A program made the translations under genes and the position numbers. Below the pieces are notes generated by a model, which saw only the letters and a list, made by a program, of their open reading frames with translations, was not told the origin of the DNA and ran no database searches. A DNA stretch of 64,000 nt from contig NC_018025.1 in assembly GCF_000266945.1 (NCBI RefSeq), positions 2,852,001-2,916,000 of the forward strand. The letters are read 5' to 3'. This document shows, one piece after another, positions 6,961 through 41,293 of this stretch. Each line of letters begins with the position of its first letter. Positions within the stretch are counted from its first letter, which is position 1. The stretch is from Desulfomonile tiedjei DSM 6799 (GTDB lineage Bacteria; Desulfobacterota; Desulfomonilia; Desulfomonilales; Desulfomonilaceae).

Positions 6961-8904
6961 ATGTTAAAGAAGTTTCTTAATCAACTTGAGAGACGCTATC
7001 CGGCCGAAGCTTTGGTGACGAACTTCCCATCACTCTTTTTGTATGATTCGGAGGGTCGGCAGTTTTCCGACGCTGCGTTTTCTGAATTGCTGTCTTTCCT
7101 GGAAAACGGGGAAGGATCCTATCAAAGCGTTGCAGTGCAAGCTGGAGTTCGATGGTGCGCCTCAGGCCAGAAGATAGTGCTCCGGAACACCATTTCGCGG
7201 CGCGGTTTTCTCACCCCATCATGTTTGTGGGCGTACCGCCAGCTCAGGGGGGGCGCCGATGTGCTCTTCAAGACGTATCCTTCTGCGGAAATGGGCTTTA
7301 TGCAGATTGTGCTTTTGAAGGAAGCCGATCCTGCTCAGGCAATTCCTTTTCTGATCGAAAATTTCTTTACCCGAAAGGATGTGCAGGAAGAACTACGAGC
7401 CGTATCCAGGCTCTGTATCCTGAGATTGCTGGAAGGAGGTATTTCCCCCGACCTCCTTTCTGAGCTGAGATCCCGTTTTAAAGGTGTAGAAATCCTGTAC
7501 CAGTGGCGTCCAACTCTTCCAACGAGCAATCGGGAAGCGAGCACGAGCGCTCAAGGAATCGTCGATTTTCACCAACTCCTCCGCTCCGTGCACGATATGA
7601 AGGAGTTGTCTTCACTCACGAGAATCGTGTACTTGCTCTCGCTTTTTTATGTTCCCCTCACGGAAAAGGAATGGGCATCCCTTTGGCTGAGTCGCACGGA
7701 CCGATTCTTTTTTCAGAGACTGAGAACAGCAAAGATGGTGGAGGCGTCCAACGGCGGATTTCTGCTGTCTACGGAAAATGCGAAGCAAAGCTTAATCAAG
7801 ACTTTTCTCTTCGAATCTTATTCCCTCGCGAAGGAGTCGGTCCACCGCAATCGGACGGAGCGACTCCGGGAAGAAAGAGAAAAGAGAGTCCGCAACAGCG
7901 AACTGGACAGGCAAGCACTGGAAATGGTCCCTGAAGGAATCATCTCCATCGACCGCACGGGCCTTCTGTATTACATGAATCCTGCTGCGGAATCGCTCCT
8001 GACCGAAAACAAACAGTTAACCGAGTTATTGTTCGGAAGAGGTTCCCTGGAAGATACCCTGAAGCGCTATTCCCGCAATGATGTCCTGTCCAGAATTACC
8101 GCGTCCGTCAAAGCAAATCGAGAATCATGCGAAATATTCGGCGACCGCATCATCGTGCATATTGGAGGAAAGCGATTCGAGGTTGAGCTGCAACCTCAAG
8201 TGGTTCTCCTCAGAGACACCACGGACCAGTTTCTCATTGATGAAGAGATCGGAAGACTCTACAGGCATGAGCTAAAAGCCGCCCTTGACGTCATGGGTAT
8301 CGGCCTGGAAACGGCCAGACAACTCATCGGAGAAGGGCGAGGTGACGAGGGGACTCAGATGCTGGAACAAGTAGAGCAAAAGCGGGTGGAACTCTTCACG
8401 ATGCTCGAAGAGCGTATGGATTTTATCCGCCTGCACTCCGATTCGTTTCAGATCATGCCTTCCACGGTGAATCTCAATTTTGTAGTCGACCGGTGCGTAT
8501 CCAATTACAAAGAAGCTGCAGCAGGAAAGGGTGTCCGGATAATCTCGGATCATCTTCTCCAACCAGCCGTATACGTTCGCGGGGAAGAACGATTTCTGGT
8601 ACGTTCCTTGGATAACCTTGTGCGCAACGCCATAAAATTCACTGACAAAGGTGGAGAAATCGAGATTTCCGTGGGAAGGGAAAAACTCGAAGCTTTCGTG
8701 AGAGTCCGGGATAACGGACCAGGCATAGCGCCGGAGCATCTGGGAAAAATATTTCAGCTTGGATTCACAACCGGCGGCACAGGAAGAGGGCTGTACCTGG
8801 CTCGAAGGATAGCTGTGGCTCATAGTGGCAGGATCGAGGTAAAAAGCGTTCCGGGTGACGGTGCATGCTTTGTGTTGCGATTACCCGTGATAACGGAGCC
8901 GTAA
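6961..8904 (+). CDS. Sensor histidine kinase with PAS domain
   Basis: The 647-residue protein has no obvious membrane segment. The first 300 residues match no domain I recognise and may be the input module. A PAS-like segment follows (about 315-420), then an H-box with the phospho-accepting His436 (YRHELKAALD) and a HATPase domain with N-box Asn556 (RNAIKF), DNGPGI, and a glycine-rich TGGTGRG lid. The family autophosphorylates on His and passes phosphate to a receiver. Its stop codon directly abuts the ATG of the next gene, a receiver-kinase hybrid, so translation is probably coupled and the receiver there is the likely partner. No Shine-Dalgarno sequence is seen at this start. Confidence 0.9.
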   Translation: MLKKFLNQLERRYPAEALVTNFPSLFLYDSEGRQFSDAAFSELLSFLENGEGSYQSVAVQAGVRWCASGQKIVLRNTISRRGFLTPSCLWAYRQLRGGADVLFKTYPSAEMGFMQIVLLKEADPAQAIPFLIENFFTRKDVQEELRAVSRLCILRLLEGGISPDLLSELRSRFKGVEILYQWRPTLPTSNREASTSAQGIVDFHQLLRSVHDMKELSSLTRIVYLLSLFYVPLTEKEWASLWLSRTDRFFFQRLRTAKMVEASNGGFLLSTENAKQSLIKTFLFESYSLAKESVHRNRTERLREEREKRVRNSELDRQALEMVPEGIISIDRTGLLYYMNPAAESLLTENKQLTELLFGRGSLEDTLKRYSRNDVLSRITASVKANRESCEIFGDRIIVHIGGKRFEVELQPQVVLLRDTTDQFLIDEEIGRLYRHELKAALDVMGIGLETARQLIGEGRGDEGTQMLEQVEQKRVELFTMLEERMDFIRLHSDSFQIMPSTVNLNFVVDRCVSNYKEAAAGKGVRIISDHLLQPAVYVRGEERFLVRSLDNLVRNAIKFTDKGGEIEISVGREKLEAFVRVRDNGPGIAPEHLGKIFQLGFTTGGTGRGLYLARRIAVAHSGRIEVKSVPGDGACFVLRLPVITEP

Positions 8905-22497: not shown

Positions 22498-22656
22498 CAA
22501 TGTGCGTTCAAAGAAGTAATCCCGCCACCGGCGGGAGCAAATCCGGTTCCGGCATGTCTCCGAAGCGAAGTCAGGCCCTGCCGTTCGTAGCGGAGGAGAT
22601 TTGGCGGGACCGGCCAAAAACAGATCTCTCAATATTCCCTCTATGAAAGCACATTG
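22498..22656 (-). repeat. MITE-like element, copy A
   Basis: This 159-bp stretch is about 80% identical by eye to the reverse complement of 37719-37865. Both copies end in the 8-bp inverted repeat CAATGTGC/GCACATTG and have no coding capacity. The copy lies just upstream of the CDF gene start and may influence its expression. No obvious target duplication is seen. Confidence 0.75.
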
Positions 22657-22674
22657 GTATCACATGTACAAAAC

Positions 22675-36668: not shown

Positions 36669-37682
36669 ATGTCTGAATATTTCTATCTGAAAAGGCCGCT
36701 TTCGTTAACCAGGAAATTCCTGATTCCCTTTCTATACATCGTCTCATTCTCCTTACTAACAAGTAACTTGTGCTCGGCCGCGGATCCCGGTGCATACTCC
36801 AGAGCCTCGTATGTGCTGCCTCCGGACCTTGTAAAGCGGGGATTTTCCTTCGCTGACGTGAAGATCCCGCTGGAACGCCAGGACGTCGTCTCTCGCGTCT
36901 CCGATCAGATCAACTATTTGCTGATGGATAGAAAAGCAGGGATGATGGAATGGTTCGATCGTCTCGCAGTGTACGGTCCCACAATTAAGAAGGTCCTGGC
37001 GGACGAGAAGGTTCCGGCCGATCTCATTTATCTTCCAACGCTCCTGAGCGATCTCATGCCGAATGCCCGCTCTCGGTCCGGGGGAATTGGTTGGTGGGCT
37101 CTGGGCAATGCCAAGGATAAGAAAGATTCGGCTGTTCCCTGGGTTCAAACCAATGATTGGGACGACCGCAGAGATCCTGTCCTGTCCACGAGAATTGCTT
37201 GCACGCTTCTCCAGACCTATGCTCGAAAGAACCAGTCTTCCGATTGGCTCCTGACGATATGCTCCTTCGTCGACGGGTCTGACAAAATTGAAGCGGTGGT
37301 AGCCAAATCGCCGGGTTTCGGTTACTGGGATCTGGTGATGCCACACTATTCGGAAATCCTTATCCCCAGGCTCGTTGCTTTGAAAATCATCTCCACCCAT
37401 AGAGAGTTCTATGGCGTTGATGTTCCGCCTTTGCCTTCGTTGGCATACCATTTTATGGATCGTCTCAAGCTATCGAAAGAGCTTCCGCTTTACGTGGTCG
37501 CCGATTGGTGCGGAACCAATCCCAGATCCATATGGGAGATGAATCCGGGAGTCGATCCTTCCACAGGGGTACTGCCCAAACCTGATAAGAGAAGCCCGTC
37601 CGGTTTTCCTCTCAGAGTACCGAAAGGGAAAGAAACCAAGGTTCGCGAATTGCTGGTTCGTGAAGGTTACCTTGCGCCATAA
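36669..37682 (+). CDS. MltD-like periplasmic protein, probably inactive lytic transglycosylase
   Basis: A signal anchor (about 17-35 of this start) is followed by a lytic-transglycosylase-like fold and a C-terminal LysM-like segment (LYVVADWCGTNPRSIWEMNPGV, then LRVPKGKE). In MltD the catalytic motif reads VES...A.S..GA.GLWQ; here the matching stretch is LPTLLSDLMPNARSRSGGIGWW, so the catalytic Glu is replaced. The helical frame with DWDDRRDP and ACTLLQTYA is kept. It probably binds peptidoglycan without cutting it. ATG at 36669 has AAAGGA upstream. Third gene of the 34700-37682 envelope operon. Confidence 0.75.
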   Translation: MSEYFYLKRPLSLTRKFLIPFLYIVSFSLLTSNLCSAADPGAYSRASYVLPPDLVKRGFSFADVKIPLERQDVVSRVSDQINYLLMDRKAGMMEWFDRLAVYGPTIKKVLADEKVPADLIYLPTLLSDLMPNARSRSGGIGWWALGNAKDKKDSAVPWVQTNDWDDRRDPVLSTRIACTLLQTYARKNQSSDWLLTICSFVDGSDKIEAVVAKSPGFGYWDLVMPHYSEILIPRLVALKIISTHREFYGVDVPPLPSLAYHFMDRLKLSKELPLYVVADWCGTNPRSIWEMNPGVDPSTGVLPKPDKRSPSGFPLRVPKGKETKVRELLVREGYLAP

Positions 37683-37718
37683 GTGATTATTCTGTGATTA
37701 TTGAAGTCTTCTAATCCC

Positions 37719-37865
37719 AATGTGCTTTCATAGAGGGAATATTGAGACACCTGTTATTTTCCGGTCTCGGCAAATCTCCTTCGCTACGAACGGCACCGCC
37801 TGACTTCGCTTCGGAGACTTGCCGGGACCGGATTTGCCAGATGTTACTTATTTGAACGCACATTG
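37719..37865 (+). repeat. MITE-like element, copy B
   Basis: This 147-bp element matches the reverse complement of 22498-22656 over nearly its full length and ends in the same CAATGTGC/GCACATTG inverted repeats. Its right end lies 22 bases before the CULT gene start, so it may carry or disturb that promoter. Confidence 0.75.
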
Positions 37866-37887
37866 GTATGACTCACACGAGGTCCTC

Positions 37888-38265
37888 ATGCTTGCGTATG
37901 TAAAGACGGACCGCAACGATAAGAATCGACAGTCTTTTCACTGCGCATGGTGCGGGATTTTTATCACCGATTCCGGACAATTATTCAGGATTAACGGCGC
38001 AGATTCTCATTCCTTCGTCAATCCTTCCGGCGTGCAATGCAATTTCAGAACATTTCATCATTGCGAGAACGTCATCGTTCACCACGATCTTTATTTCGAG
38101 CATTCCTGGTTTTCCGGGTTCGGGTGGCGCTTCTTGATGTGCGCCCGTTGCCTTCATCATCTTGGATGGAAATATGACAGAGGCAACGAACACATGGATA
38201 TACACGGCTTTTTCGGGGTGTTACAGGAGGCTGTGGAGTCCGTATCGGCAGATGATGGAACGTGA
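37888..38265 (+). CDS. Stand-alone CULT-domain (cereblon-like, thalidomide-pocket) protein
   Basis: The 125-residue protein is one CULT domain. Zinc ligands are Cys19, Cys22, Cys85 and Cys88. The three pocket tryptophans Trp74, Trp80 and Trp94 have the same spacing (6 and 14) as Trp380, 386 and 400 of human cereblon, and Glu71-His72-Ser-Trp74 matches E377-H378-S-W380. Asn45-Pro46 stands 29 residues before Trp74, as Asn351 does in cereblon. The family binds glutarimide or cyclic-imide ligands and uracil-like compounds; the bacterial role is not known. GAGG lies before the ATG; earlier in-frame starts lie inside the repeat element. It converges with the next gene. Confidence 0.88.
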   Translation: MLAYVKTDRNDKNRQSFHCAWCGIFITDSGQLFRINGADSHSFVNPSGVQCNFRTFHHCENVIVHHDLYFEHSWFSGFGWRFLMCARCLHHLGWKYDRGNEHMDIHGFFGVLQEAVESVSADDGT

Positions 38266-38267
38266 TA

Positions 38268-38573
38268 TTAGCGGTGTAAATTCAAGAGCAATTTCTTCAT
38301 GTGAGTCAGTCCGGCAATAATCCCGCTCAACCATCCTCCCACACAACCTGCAAGAAAAAGCATCGCATCCATGTCTCTGTAGTCGGTCAGCTTGAAATGG
38401 AGAAACACATAGGTGATCAAAAAGGATACGATCCCTGCGAGCAAGAACACCCGGATAAAGCTGCGTCCGGAAGTGCTCATGAACTTTCCCGCTATAAAAA
38501 AGACCAGCATCAAGGCTCCCAAAGAAAGAGCAAAACCCAGGAACCCTGCTTTCAACAACAAAAAAATGTTCAT
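38268..38573 (-). CDS. Small membrane protein with three predicted helices
   Basis: The 101-residue protein has three hydrophobic segments (about 4-29, 39-58, 68-88) and short polar ends. I recognise no family. It ends two bases after the convergent CULT gene and lies 21 bases downstream of the small exported protein at 38595, so those two are probably cotranscribed. Confidence 0.75.
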   Translation of the reverse strand: MNIFLLLKAGFLGFALSLGALMLVFFIAGKFMSTSGRSFIRVFLLAGIVSFLITYVFLHFKLTDYRDMDAMLFLAGCVGGWLSGIIAGLTHMKKLLLNLHR

Positions 38574-38594: not shown

Positions 38595-38924
38595 TTAAAT
38601 GCCTGAATCGGATTGTGTTCCCGAGACTTCCCACGGTGTTTGGAGGTAGTTTAAGCCGTAGATGACCGCACCTTCGTCTTTGTCCTTGTAGAGGACACGC
38701 ACACGGTCGCCTTTAAGCGGAAGTCTTGGCGGGTCGAATCGGGCGTTCCATCTCAATAAAAACTTGCGGGGCTGTTGGGCATCACCTTTGGCAACGATCC
38801 AGACGTTTTCATCTTTCACGTCCACAATTACCCCGTCCACGATTTGAATCGGCGCCCCATTCGCGATGATGGCAATCAACATAAAAAAAGAAAGTAACAA
38901 CGCTGTTCTTATTGATACGCGCAT
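38595..38924 (-). CDS. Small exported OB-fold-like protein
   Basis: After a signal peptide (about 1-24, cleavage near ANGA) the mature 85 residues are beta-rich (IVDGVIVDVKDENVWIVAK, then DRVRVLYKDKDEGAVIYGL), like the small OB-fold or DUF5666-type exported proteins. Function unknown. ATG at 38924 is preferred to a TTG eight codons upstream because it starts right at the basic n-region of the signal peptide. Confidence 0.7.
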   Translation of the reverse strand: MRVSIRTALLLSFFMLIAIIANGAPIQIVDGVIVDVKDENVWIVAKGDAQQPRKFLLRWNARFDPPRLPLKGDRVRVLYKDKDEGAVIYGLNYLQTPWEVSGTQSDSGI

Positions 38925-39020
38925 CCTGAGGGTAATCTCGTCATCCAATCGGTGATCTATGGTGAATATAAGACTGCGGTCCCCTGATTAGGTTCCCGTA
39001 GGAGACCGCAATCCAGTCGT

Positions 39021-40433
39021 CTATTTTATGCCGAAGGTATCGAGCATGGATAACGCAGCCTTTCTGCCGGCTCCCATAGCGAGAATGACCGTGGCGGCTC
39101 CAGTAACTATGTCACCGCCTGCCCAAACGCGATCCTTCGAGGTCTTACCGGTTTCCAGATCGGCAACAATATTTCCCCACTTGTTGGTTTCCAGATTCTT
39201 CGTGGTGCTGGGAACCAGAGGGTTCGCTCCATTGCCGATGGAGACGATTACTGTATCGCATTCGATATCGAAGAACTCATCCGTGGGCATGGGGCGTCTT
39301 CTTCCCGAATTGTCGGGCTCGCCCAGCACCATTTTCTGACAGTGCACGCCTACTGCCCAACCGGTTTCATTCCCGATGATTTCTGTCGGGGCAGTGAGCA
39401 ACTGGAATTTAATCCCTTCTTCCACTGCATGATGCACTTCTTCCGCTCTGGCGGGCAGTTCTTCCATAGTTCTGCGATAGACGATGGTGACTTCTTCGGC
39501 TCCGAGGCGTAAAGCACTTCTGGCAGAGTCCATAGCCACGTTTCCGCCTCCGAATACGACGACCCTGCGGCCTTTTGCCGTTGGTGTATCGGATTGCGGA
39601 AAGAGATAGGCCTTCATGAGATTTGCACGAGTGAGAAATTCGTTCGCGGAATAGACACCGTTCAGGTTCTCTCCCGGAATCTTCAAGAAGAGGGGAGCAC
39701 CCGCTCCGGTTCCGATGAACACGCCATCGAACTTCGCTTTTTCCAGCAGGTCGTCGACAGTTTCGATTCTTCCCACAACCCAGTTTGTCTTGAATTCCAC
39801 TCCGAGTTTGCGCAACTCGTCGACTTCCGACTTGACGATAGCTTTCGGCAAACGGAACTCGGGGATGCCGTAGACCAGAACCCCACCAAGTTCATGAAGC
39901 GCTTCGAAAACCGTCACAGCCACGCCCTTCTTGATGAGTGCTCCAGCCAGAGTCAGACCTGCCGGTCCTGAACCCACAACTCCCACGCGTAGCCCAGTGG
40001 GTTTGGGCAATTCTGGAGTCTTGCCTTCTCCATGAACTGCTGCATAATCTGCAACGAATCGTTCCAACCGTCCGATTGCGCAGGGCTCGCCTTTTTTCCC
40101 AAGGACACACTTAGATTCGCACTGGGATTCCTGGGGACACACGCGGCCGGCAATGCGCGGCAGGCTGTTCTTCTCCTTCACTTTCCACGCAGCGCCGATA
40201 AAATCGCCTTTCTTGACCATTTCCACGAAATCGGGAATATCCACTTCCACTGGGCATCCGGCCATGCAATAGGGTTTCTTGCAATGAAGGCAGCGGCTCG
40301 CTTCCAAGAGTGCGAGATCGTTATCATACCCAAGAGCTACTTCGTAGAAATTGTGCGCCCGCTCTATAGGATTCTGTTCAGGCATCTTTTGCCTGGGAAT
40401 CTTCGGTTTCTTCGGTTTTTGTTGTTCGGACAT
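39021..40433 (-). CDS. nfnB: NfnB/SudA-type NADPH-binding subunit (glutamate-synthase beta-like)
   Basis: The 470-residue protein has two N-terminal 4Fe-4S sites (CLHCKKPYCMAGCP and CPQESQCESKC), an FAD-binding GSGPAGL motif, a second dinucleotide site GGGNVAMD for NADPH, and the C-terminal GDIVTGAATVILAMG. This is the large subunit of NADH-dependent ferredoxin:NADP oxidoreductase (NfnAB), also described as sulfide dehydrogenase SudAB. It is cytoplasmic and balances NADH, NADPH and reduced ferredoxin by flavin-based bifurcation. The ATG overlaps the stop of nfnA by one base, with GGGAGG upstream. Glutamate synthase is unlikely because gltB is absent and the partner is nfnA. Confidence 0.92.
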   Translation of the reverse strand: MSEQQKPKKPKIPRQKMPEQNPIERAHNFYEVALGYDNDLALLEASRCLHCKKPYCMAGCPVEVDIPDFVEMVKKGDFIGAAWKVKEKNSLPRIAGRVCPQESQCESKCVLGKKGEPCAIGRLERFVADYAAVHGEGKTPELPKPTGLRVGVVGSGPAGLTLAGALIKKGVAVTVFEALHELGGVLVYGIPEFRLPKAIVKSEVDELRKLGVEFKTNWVVGRIETVDDLLEKAKFDGVFIGTGAGAPLFLKIPGENLNGVYSANEFLTRANLMKAYLFPQSDTPTAKGRRVVVFGGGNVAMDSARSALRLGAEEVTIVYRRTMEELPARAEEVHHAVEEGIKFQLLTAPTEIIGNETGWAVGVHCQKMVLGEPDNSGRRRPMPTDEFFDIECDTVIVSIGNGANPLVPSTTKNLETNKWGNIVADLETGKTSKDRVWAGGDIVTGAATVILAMGAGRKAALSMLDTFGIK

Positions 40434-41293
40434 TAGGCACCTCCCGGAAATGTGCACTGGCAGCCCCGGTCTGTTTCCCGGAATTTATTCAAGGCTATCA
40501 GTTCCGGTCCTTTGTACATGGCCAGCCGTTTCATCAGAAGTTCAAAATCAACTTCATGACCATCAAATTCAGGACCATCCACGCACCCGAACATGGTCTT
40601 TCCGCCTACTTCCACACGGCATGCTCCACACATACCCGTGCCATCCACCATGATGGGGTTGAGGCTGACTACCGTGGGCAGATTAGCTGCTTTTGTCACT
40701 TTGACCACAGCTCTCATCATGGGCACAGGACCGATAGCAACACAAAGATCGATCTTCGTACCTTTGTCGATGAGACTTTGCAAAACCTGAGTGACAAAAC
40801 CGTGAATACCGAAAGAGCCGTCATCTGTGGCTATGAGAAGTTCGTCACTGACTTTTCTCATGTCTTCGGTCATAATGAGGAGGCCTTCAGTGCGTGCTCC
40901 CACGATGGTTATCACGTGGTTACCGGCATCATGCATACCTTTTGTGATGGGAAACAACGGAGCGACTCCGATACCGCCGCCTATGCCAACCACGGTTCCG
41001 AATTTCTCTATGTGCGTCGGTTTGCCGAGAGGACCGCACAGATCCTGCAGTTTGTCGCCAACACACATGGTTCCCATGTAATAGGTTGTGACTCCCACTT
41101 CCTGCCAGACGAGCGTAATTGTGCCTTTATCAGCGTCTTTGTCCGCTATGGTCAGGGGAATTCTTTCACCGTCTGCATGTGTTCTGAGAATGATGAACTG
41201 GCCGGGCTTGTGAGCTCGGGCAATTTCCGGAGCAAAGATCACGGCCCTGTTGACTCCGGGGCCGATTCGCTCTTTTTCGAGGATTTCAAACAT
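40433..41293 (-). CDS. nfnA: NfnA/SudB-type NADH- and 2Fe-2S-binding subunit
   Basis: The 286-residue protein is a ferredoxin-NADP-reductase-type flavoprotein: FAD-binding RIPLTIAD (about 46-53), the nucleotide-binding GIGGGIGVAPLFP (about 105-117), and a C-terminal 2Fe-2S motif GTGMCGACRVEVGGK...GCVDGPEFDGH. This is the small subunit of NfnAB/SudAB. It binds NADH and starts the bifurcation path. AGGAGG lies upstream, and the end overlaps nfnB by one base, so both are made in equal amounts. Confidence 0.92.
   Translation of the reverse strand: MFEILEKERIGPGVNRAVIFAPEIARAHKPGQFIILRTHADGERIPLTIADKDADKGTITLVWQEVGVTTYYMGTMCVGDKLQDLCGPLGKPTHIEKFGTVVGIGGGIGVAPLFPITKGMHDAGNHVITIVGARTEGLLIMTEDMRKVSDELLIATDDGSFGIHGFVTQVLQSLIDKGTKIDLCVAIGPVPMMRAVVKVTKAANLPTVVSLNPIMVDGTGMCGACRVEVGGKTMFGCVDGPEFDGHEVDFELLMKRLAMYKGPELIALNKFRETDRGCQCTFPGGA

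Follow-up and report, generated by a model that had tools for sequence, protein, structure and literature searches.

The question raised by this locus is what a cereblon-type domain does when it stands alone in a bacterium, as we found no established function for the bacterial relatives of cereblon in the literature. The window, that is, the whole 64,000-nucleotide stretch of Desulfomonile tiedjei DSM 6799 that was analysed, contains a gene for such a protein (Table 1). Its translation gives 125 amino acids followed by a stop codon, and a GAGG lies at 37879-37882, 5 bases ahead of the ATG. The protein contains the zinc cysteines C19, C22, C85 and C88, the asparagine N45, the stretch E71-H72-S73-W74, and W80 and W94, with spacings of 29 from N to W, then 6 and 14 from W to W. 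The four cysteines, the three pocket tryptophans, the Glu-His-Ser-Trp and Asn positions and their spacings were all found in the translation as the first-pass annotation had read them. Both CxxC zinc motifs of the CULT family (zinc being predicted from sequence) and its three cage tryptophans (W74, W80 and W94) are present, and C19, C22, N45, W74, F75, W80, C85, C88, G93, W94 and F108 are invariant in 59 aligned CULTs. PF03226 (Yippee-Mis18) is the only Pfam family above its cut-off (36.4 bits, 6e-9, cut-off 26.6); the protein is CULT domain throughout, with no second Pfam domain above cut-off in its 125 amino acids, and NCBIfam gave no match at E up to 1. Searched by phmmer against PDB sequences, it matched MsCI4 at 6.3e-12 and full-length cereblon chains at about 1e-9, well above chance expectation. 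It is the single CULT match in the source genome (6,527,027 bases, two contigs). The window protein is thus a stand-alone cereblon-type CULT domain with all the zinc and cage residues.

Table 1. Features at the CULT locus, with positions counted from the first letter of the window
Feature	Position	Strand	Basis or remark
CULT-domain (cereblon-type) protein, 125 aa	37888..38265	+	translation, PF03226, phmmer, predicted structure
MITE-like imperfect palindrome, about 160 bp	37713..37872	.	approximate limits, set by how far the genomic copies extend
Transglycosylase-like gene upstream of CULT	36669..37682	+	weak PF01464 below cut-off; start chosen, longest ORF from 36606
Putative membrane protein, 101 aa, convergent, 2 bases from the CULT stop	38268..38573	-	sequence reading, no Pfam match
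117-aa protein, conserved downstream block	38595..38948	-	part of that block
GltA/NfnB-like gene, after the 117-aa gene	39021-40457		name from sequence reading

The thalidomide-binding domain of human cereblon shares fold and sequence family with the window protein. Its cage and zinc residues presumably agree with those described above, and we take it to have a histidine at the corresponding position of the E-H-S-W stretch, human residue numbers and register being assumed as well. Human cereblon also has a LON domain and a DDB1-binding region, whereas the window protein is bacterial and stand-alone and has neither; since it counts 125 amino acids without a LON match, it is not cereblon itself. 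Given the alignment of 59 CULTs as input, AlphaFold2 produced a model with a mean pLDDT of 91.3, the cage residues falling in ten-residue blocks of mean pLDDT 94-95. The 50 Foldseek matches listed are all entries holding cereblon or MsCI4 (1e-9), and VIA-align superposed the model on thalidomide-bound MsCI4 (5amh) with a Z of 19.1 and 1.1 A over 106 residues, so that the predicted fold is the beta-tent of cereblon. The earlier description of a cereblon-like CULT protein with an intact three-tryptophan cage is backed by sequence, profile and predicted structure alike. The CULT family, to which the window protein belongs, has been known since 2015, and bacterial stand-alone members, mainly from delta-proteobacteria, are already described in the accessible part of PMC4287342. 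The same part presents Yippee/Mis18 (PF03226) as beta-tent relatives of CULT; the best sequence and fold matches of the window protein are cereblon entries instead.

MsCI4 (Cereblon isoform 4, MGR_0879, from Magnetospirillum gryphiswaldense) resembles the window protein in having a single CULT domain, the CxxC pair, and the asparagine and three tryptophans at equal spacing. The two are 27-30% identical, and in an ungapped alignment the three tryptophans of the window protein fall on W79, W85 and W99 of MsCI4. Wild-type MsCI4 differs by a phenylalanine at the place of the histidine of E-H-S-W, and it is the humanised MsCI4 (9gjq) that H72 of the window protein matches. Judged by its close relative at locus L028 as a proxy, MsCI4 also belongs to another CULT clade, and L028 has a PpiC-like gene upstream (name from sequence reading), unlike the window locus. 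The contig of L028 is titled Stygiobacter, its CULT is very similar to MsCI4 of Magnetospirillum, and contamination of the bin is possible.

CULT was present in 39 of 395 genomes sampled evenly over the phylum, and this patchiness makes transfer elsewhere possible. A contig scan with two short peptide patterns found 25 CULT loci, mostly in records titled delta-proteobacterial, with a few from Nitrospirota, Myxococcota and other proteobacteria and one from Stygiobacter. Neighbour genes were called by a custom script without an annotation pipeline and named by sequence reading, except ComM and LonC (Pfam); L073-L075 were left out of the counts as their CULT is identical, while L108, whose CULT is incomplete, is outside the 59-row alignment yet enters the GNG count given below. 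Across 60 non-redundant loci, no neighbour cluster is universal except CULT itself. The survey of homologues' neighbours thus gave no universal partner, and it did give recurrent lineage-bound ones: ComM/YifB (9 loci), a CobA-HemD type gene (6), an alpha/beta hydrolase (3), a DksA-like gene directly upstream of CULT (3) and LonC. In several CULT clades, the midpoints of CULT and of ComM/YifB, a Mg chelatase-like AAA protein, are no more than about 2.6 kb apart (L016-L019, L021, L025, L031, L096 and L102). ComM/YifB gave one match each in 44 of 47 CULT genomes, of which 3 have it close to CULT (G172, G182 and G221), and it was not adopted as a partner. Four long CULT ORFs (L083, L105, L091 and L104) were considered as fusions; by eye their N-terminal parts look like wrong starts, and therefore no CULT fusion is claimed.

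The recurrent neighbour that may bear on function is LonC. At L076 and L079, a LonC-type gene lies downstream of CULT on the same strand, and both CULTs belong to the window protein's clade, which comprises 19 rows, 6 from its own family and 13 others, with an SH-aLRT of 98 in a quick tree of few columns (support 100/98 in an earlier version of 15 rows); L121 and, from the same order, L107 are outside it. The order of L076 and L079 (85 genomes) provided three more CULT/LonC clusters, at L117, L118 and L120, and none at L119 and L121. By Pfam, the CULT-linked LonCs contain AAA_32, LonB_AAA-LID, LonC_helical and Lon_C, and the third gene of the cluster encodes a BFN (bifunctional-nuclease) domain protein, recognised by Pfam at L076, L079, L118 and L120 and by phmmer at L117. 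Same-strand CULT/LonC/BFN clusters therefore occur in 5 of the 13 non-family clade genomes. The order is CULT-LonC-BFN at L076, L079 and L118, with 444, 87 and 13 bases between CULT and LonC at the three loci, and LonC-BFN-CULT at L117 and L120, with 266 and 121 bases between BFN and CULT. LonC followed by BFN is a recurrent pair that is also found without CULT (L155, L156, L157, L162, L185 and L186).

Once duplicate loci had been removed, the CULT-linked LonCs grouped in a clade of 12 rows (support 100/100), of which five are clustered with CULT, three lie apart from it in CULT-bearing genomes (G172, G415 and G476) and four come from genomes without a detected CULT (G473, G479, G487 and G488). 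The five clustered LonCs have GPPKAGLT-like segments for Walker A, with the lysine absent, keep GDSASS around the serine, and keep a CX3GLXG insert (consensus CX3GLX(G/E), PMC3391209, in its accessible part). According to the same part of that source, LonC has no ATPase activity and degrades only unfolded proteins, without ATP and without an adaptor. The LonC of Meiothermus taiwanensis likewise has the LonC domains and the insert found in this partner from the sister branches (not a gene of the window), but the sister-branch LonC differs in forming a separate 12-row clade that co-occurs with one CULT clade. Among the matches listed in open-licence PMC, we found no paper on bacterial CULT neighbourhoods or a CULT-LonC link, nor one on such a CULT partner for LonC. 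What is new here is that CULT and LonC co-occur, and in part cluster, in the sister branches.

This co-occurrence extends beyond the clusters. A LonC of the 12-row type is carried by 13 of 13 non-family genomes of the CULT clade, one fragment counted. Five of them (those of L016, L017, L018, L020 and L021) were examined for LonC after the clade was defined: the L079 LonC was matched at 61-62% in the genomes of L016, L018 and L021 and at 60% up to a contig end in that of L020 (G493), and the genome of L017 (G490) has a 155-residue LonC fragment of 53.5% beside a run of N; over this stretch, LonCs of the clade reach 54-69% and all others 44% at most. As L016-L021 are close relatives, these are not five independent tests. 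None of the 24 genomes with other CULTs carries a LonC of this type (best match 42%, 6 of the 24 without any LonC). In a further screen of genomes with other CULTs, 19 gave no AAA_32 match, and G474, G197, G171 and G193, with one copy each placed, fall outside the LonC clade. The comparison of 13/13 with 0/24 gives a Fisher value of 2.8e-10, or 7.0e-9 with the fragment taken as a miss, and in the order sample a clade CULT is found in 6 of 11 genomes with the 12-row-type LonC vs 0 of 74 without it (Fisher 1.1e-6); all these values overstate the case, because shared ancestry is ignored. The 11 include G423, whose second LonC copy is of the 12-row type (71.5% to L079, with BFN), and unfetched copies were judged by their AAA_32 score (at most 165.7 bits vs 175.8 or more for the 12-row type). 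Five genomes have such a LonC without a detected CULT (G423, G473, G479, G487 and G488), but in G423, G479 and G488 LonC starts near a contig end, so that an upstream CULT could be missing from the assembly. An N-terminal GNG motif is present in 13 of 13 non-family clade CULTs vs 0 of 6 in the window family and 1 of 46 others; the motif was spotted in hindsight and could be a sign of kinship only.

These observations reach the window protein only through its relatives. The 12-row-type LonC is absent from all six CULT genomes of the window family, where the only match is 39-41% identical. In the source genome this match (39%) is outside the 12-row clade; it lies at roughly C1:1.93 Mb, some 0.96 Mb away from CULT, and no CULT lies beside it. 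The GNG motif before the first CxxC is likewise absent from 6 of 6 family CULTs. Since the family has neither, the link to a protease is indirect for the window protein, and the protease hypothesis comes from its relatives and describes no property of the window locus. PCMT, reported to make the human cyclic-imide degron, was also considered as a CULT partner; it was found in every one of the 66 genomes tested and therefore does not discriminate. Two PCMT copies are found in the CULT-bearing G000, G004, G006, G008, G009 and G011 and one in the CULT-less G005, G007 and G012, a small set of related genomes.

At the locus itself, the first-pass annotation had proposed a gene without operon partner, next to a MITE-like element and perhaps horizontally spread. 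The absence of an operon partner holds for the source genome, but the locus is common to related genera. CULT orthologues occur in 6 of 18 family genomes, a match in G001 (E 3e-4) having been rejected after three frames were read without a CULT-like CxxC/Trp pattern. The transglycosylase-like gene lies upstream in 4 of these 6 loci (window, L007, L008 and L011; L012-L015, whose contigs are equal in length to those of L007, L009, L011 and L008, were left out of the counts), and the convergent 101-aa gene is common to the window, L007 and L008. At L008, an MvhD/HdrD-type ORF (by reading; 7236-7712) stands between the transglycosylase-like gene and CULT. At L009 and L010, CULT is elsewhere. With four of six loci sharing the upstream gene and these two displaced, CULT has descended mainly vertically in the family, relocation having occurred in at least some cases.

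The MITE-like element itself is confirmed: its ends form inverted repeats of 29 nt (76% complementary), and none of 200 shuffles folded as well as the intergenic stretch containing it (z -4.1). With 40 of 127 candidates scored, at least 40 further rows were found in the genome, two of these rows being adjacent pieces of one place, and a second copy in the window is 83% identical (22498-22660, minus strand). The element ends about 15 bases ahead of the CULT ATG and therefore may carry or replace its promoter; a promoter/terminator scan gave no excess over shuffles. We conclude that it is a local insertion of an element dispersed through the genome. That CULT is a horizontally spreading, MITE-associated ligand sensor, for which the position of the element directly upstream and the patchy occurrence in the phylum could be invoked, is consequently highly improbable: the locus is shared in four of six family members, plasmid and phage collections gave no CULT match at E 1e-5, viral contigs gave none by two short patterns, and the element is scattered over the whole genome.

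As to function, we tentatively favour the possibility that the window protein reads cyclic-imide, that is, damaged C-terminal, ends in protein quality control. It would be a small, non-catalytic binder stabilised by zinc, and its tryptophan cage would accommodate a cyclic imide with a ring of five or six members. In this mechanism CULT would read C-terminal aspartimide or glutarimide ends left by chain breakage or damage, or alternatively a small imide signalling such damage; in the sister branches the LonC-type protease would then remove the proteins marked by the reader, reader and protease being two separate chains in the place taken by a ubiquitin ligase in eukaryotes. The ligand, the reading of protein ends and the hand-over to a protease are what we infer as our preferred mechanism. 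In human cereblon, the domain recognises cyclic imides at the C-termini of proteins that are damaged or processed, according to the accessible part of PMC11974815. Since the pocket residues are the same and such ends arise at Asn chain breaks, reading them would be the simplest function suiting bacteria. The co-occurrence with a Lon-like protease suggests that bacteria may use the pocket to mark damaged proteins for breakdown; against this, such a link is missing from the other CULT clades, some of which have recurrent neighbours of another kind, and the LonC described in PMC3391209 acts without an adaptor. A more specific form, in which CULT and a dedicated LonC carry out a ubiquitin-free destruction of cyclic-imide-ended proteins, the GNG segment being a candidate for docking and another protease being used in the window family, seems to us unlikely.

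Two other readings have to be weighed against the reading of damaged ends. A sensor for a uracil-like or cyclic-imide ligand, as proposed by the first-pass annotation, is plausible from the biochemistry of MsCI4, which binds uridine and thalidomide with low micromolar affinity (PMC4449219) through a site that folds upon ligand binding (PMC4449219; PMC4287342), as given in the accessible parts of both papers; the binding of uridine allows for a nucleobase role. The cage would here bind uracil, uridine or a metabolic cyclic imide, ligand-induced folding would alter a protein contact, and the association with LonC would be secondary. The invariance of the cage residues over 59 rows is compatible with such a sensor or buffer, but no pyrimidine, hydantoin or imide-degradation gene was seen among 40 neighbour clusters or the nearest genes (by eye, some Pfam-annotated), and no fused output domain is evident by eye in the four longest CULT ORFs; we rate this reading as somewhat unlikely. 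The gene context in the sister branches points towards proteolysis more than nucleobase metabolism. CULT and LonC could also form a co-inherited, partly mobile block without physical cooperation, the window protein doing something unrelated. LonC does occur with BFN but no detected CULT at L155, L156, L162, L185 and L186, the window family keeps CULT without the 12-row-type LonC, and the two genes are apart in the assembly in 8 of 13 genomes (the contigs of L020 and L022 end close to CULT). In all 8 of these genomes, however, LonC is present (in one as a fragment, in another truncated at a contig end), the gene order varies between clusters, and none of the 74 relatives without the 12-row-type LonC has a clade CULT; a mere block is somewhat unlikely in our judgement.

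Cereblon is a widely used recruiter in targeted protein degradation, and CULT clusters with a named protease offer a concrete test of the function of bacterial CULTs. If the joint action of CULT and LonC is true, cereblon would have arisen late, by the rewiring of an older logic of CULT plus protease. Finally, as the E-H-S-W stretch is natural in the window protein and engineered in humanised MsCI4, the window protein could serve as a convenient bacterial stand-in in ligand studies.
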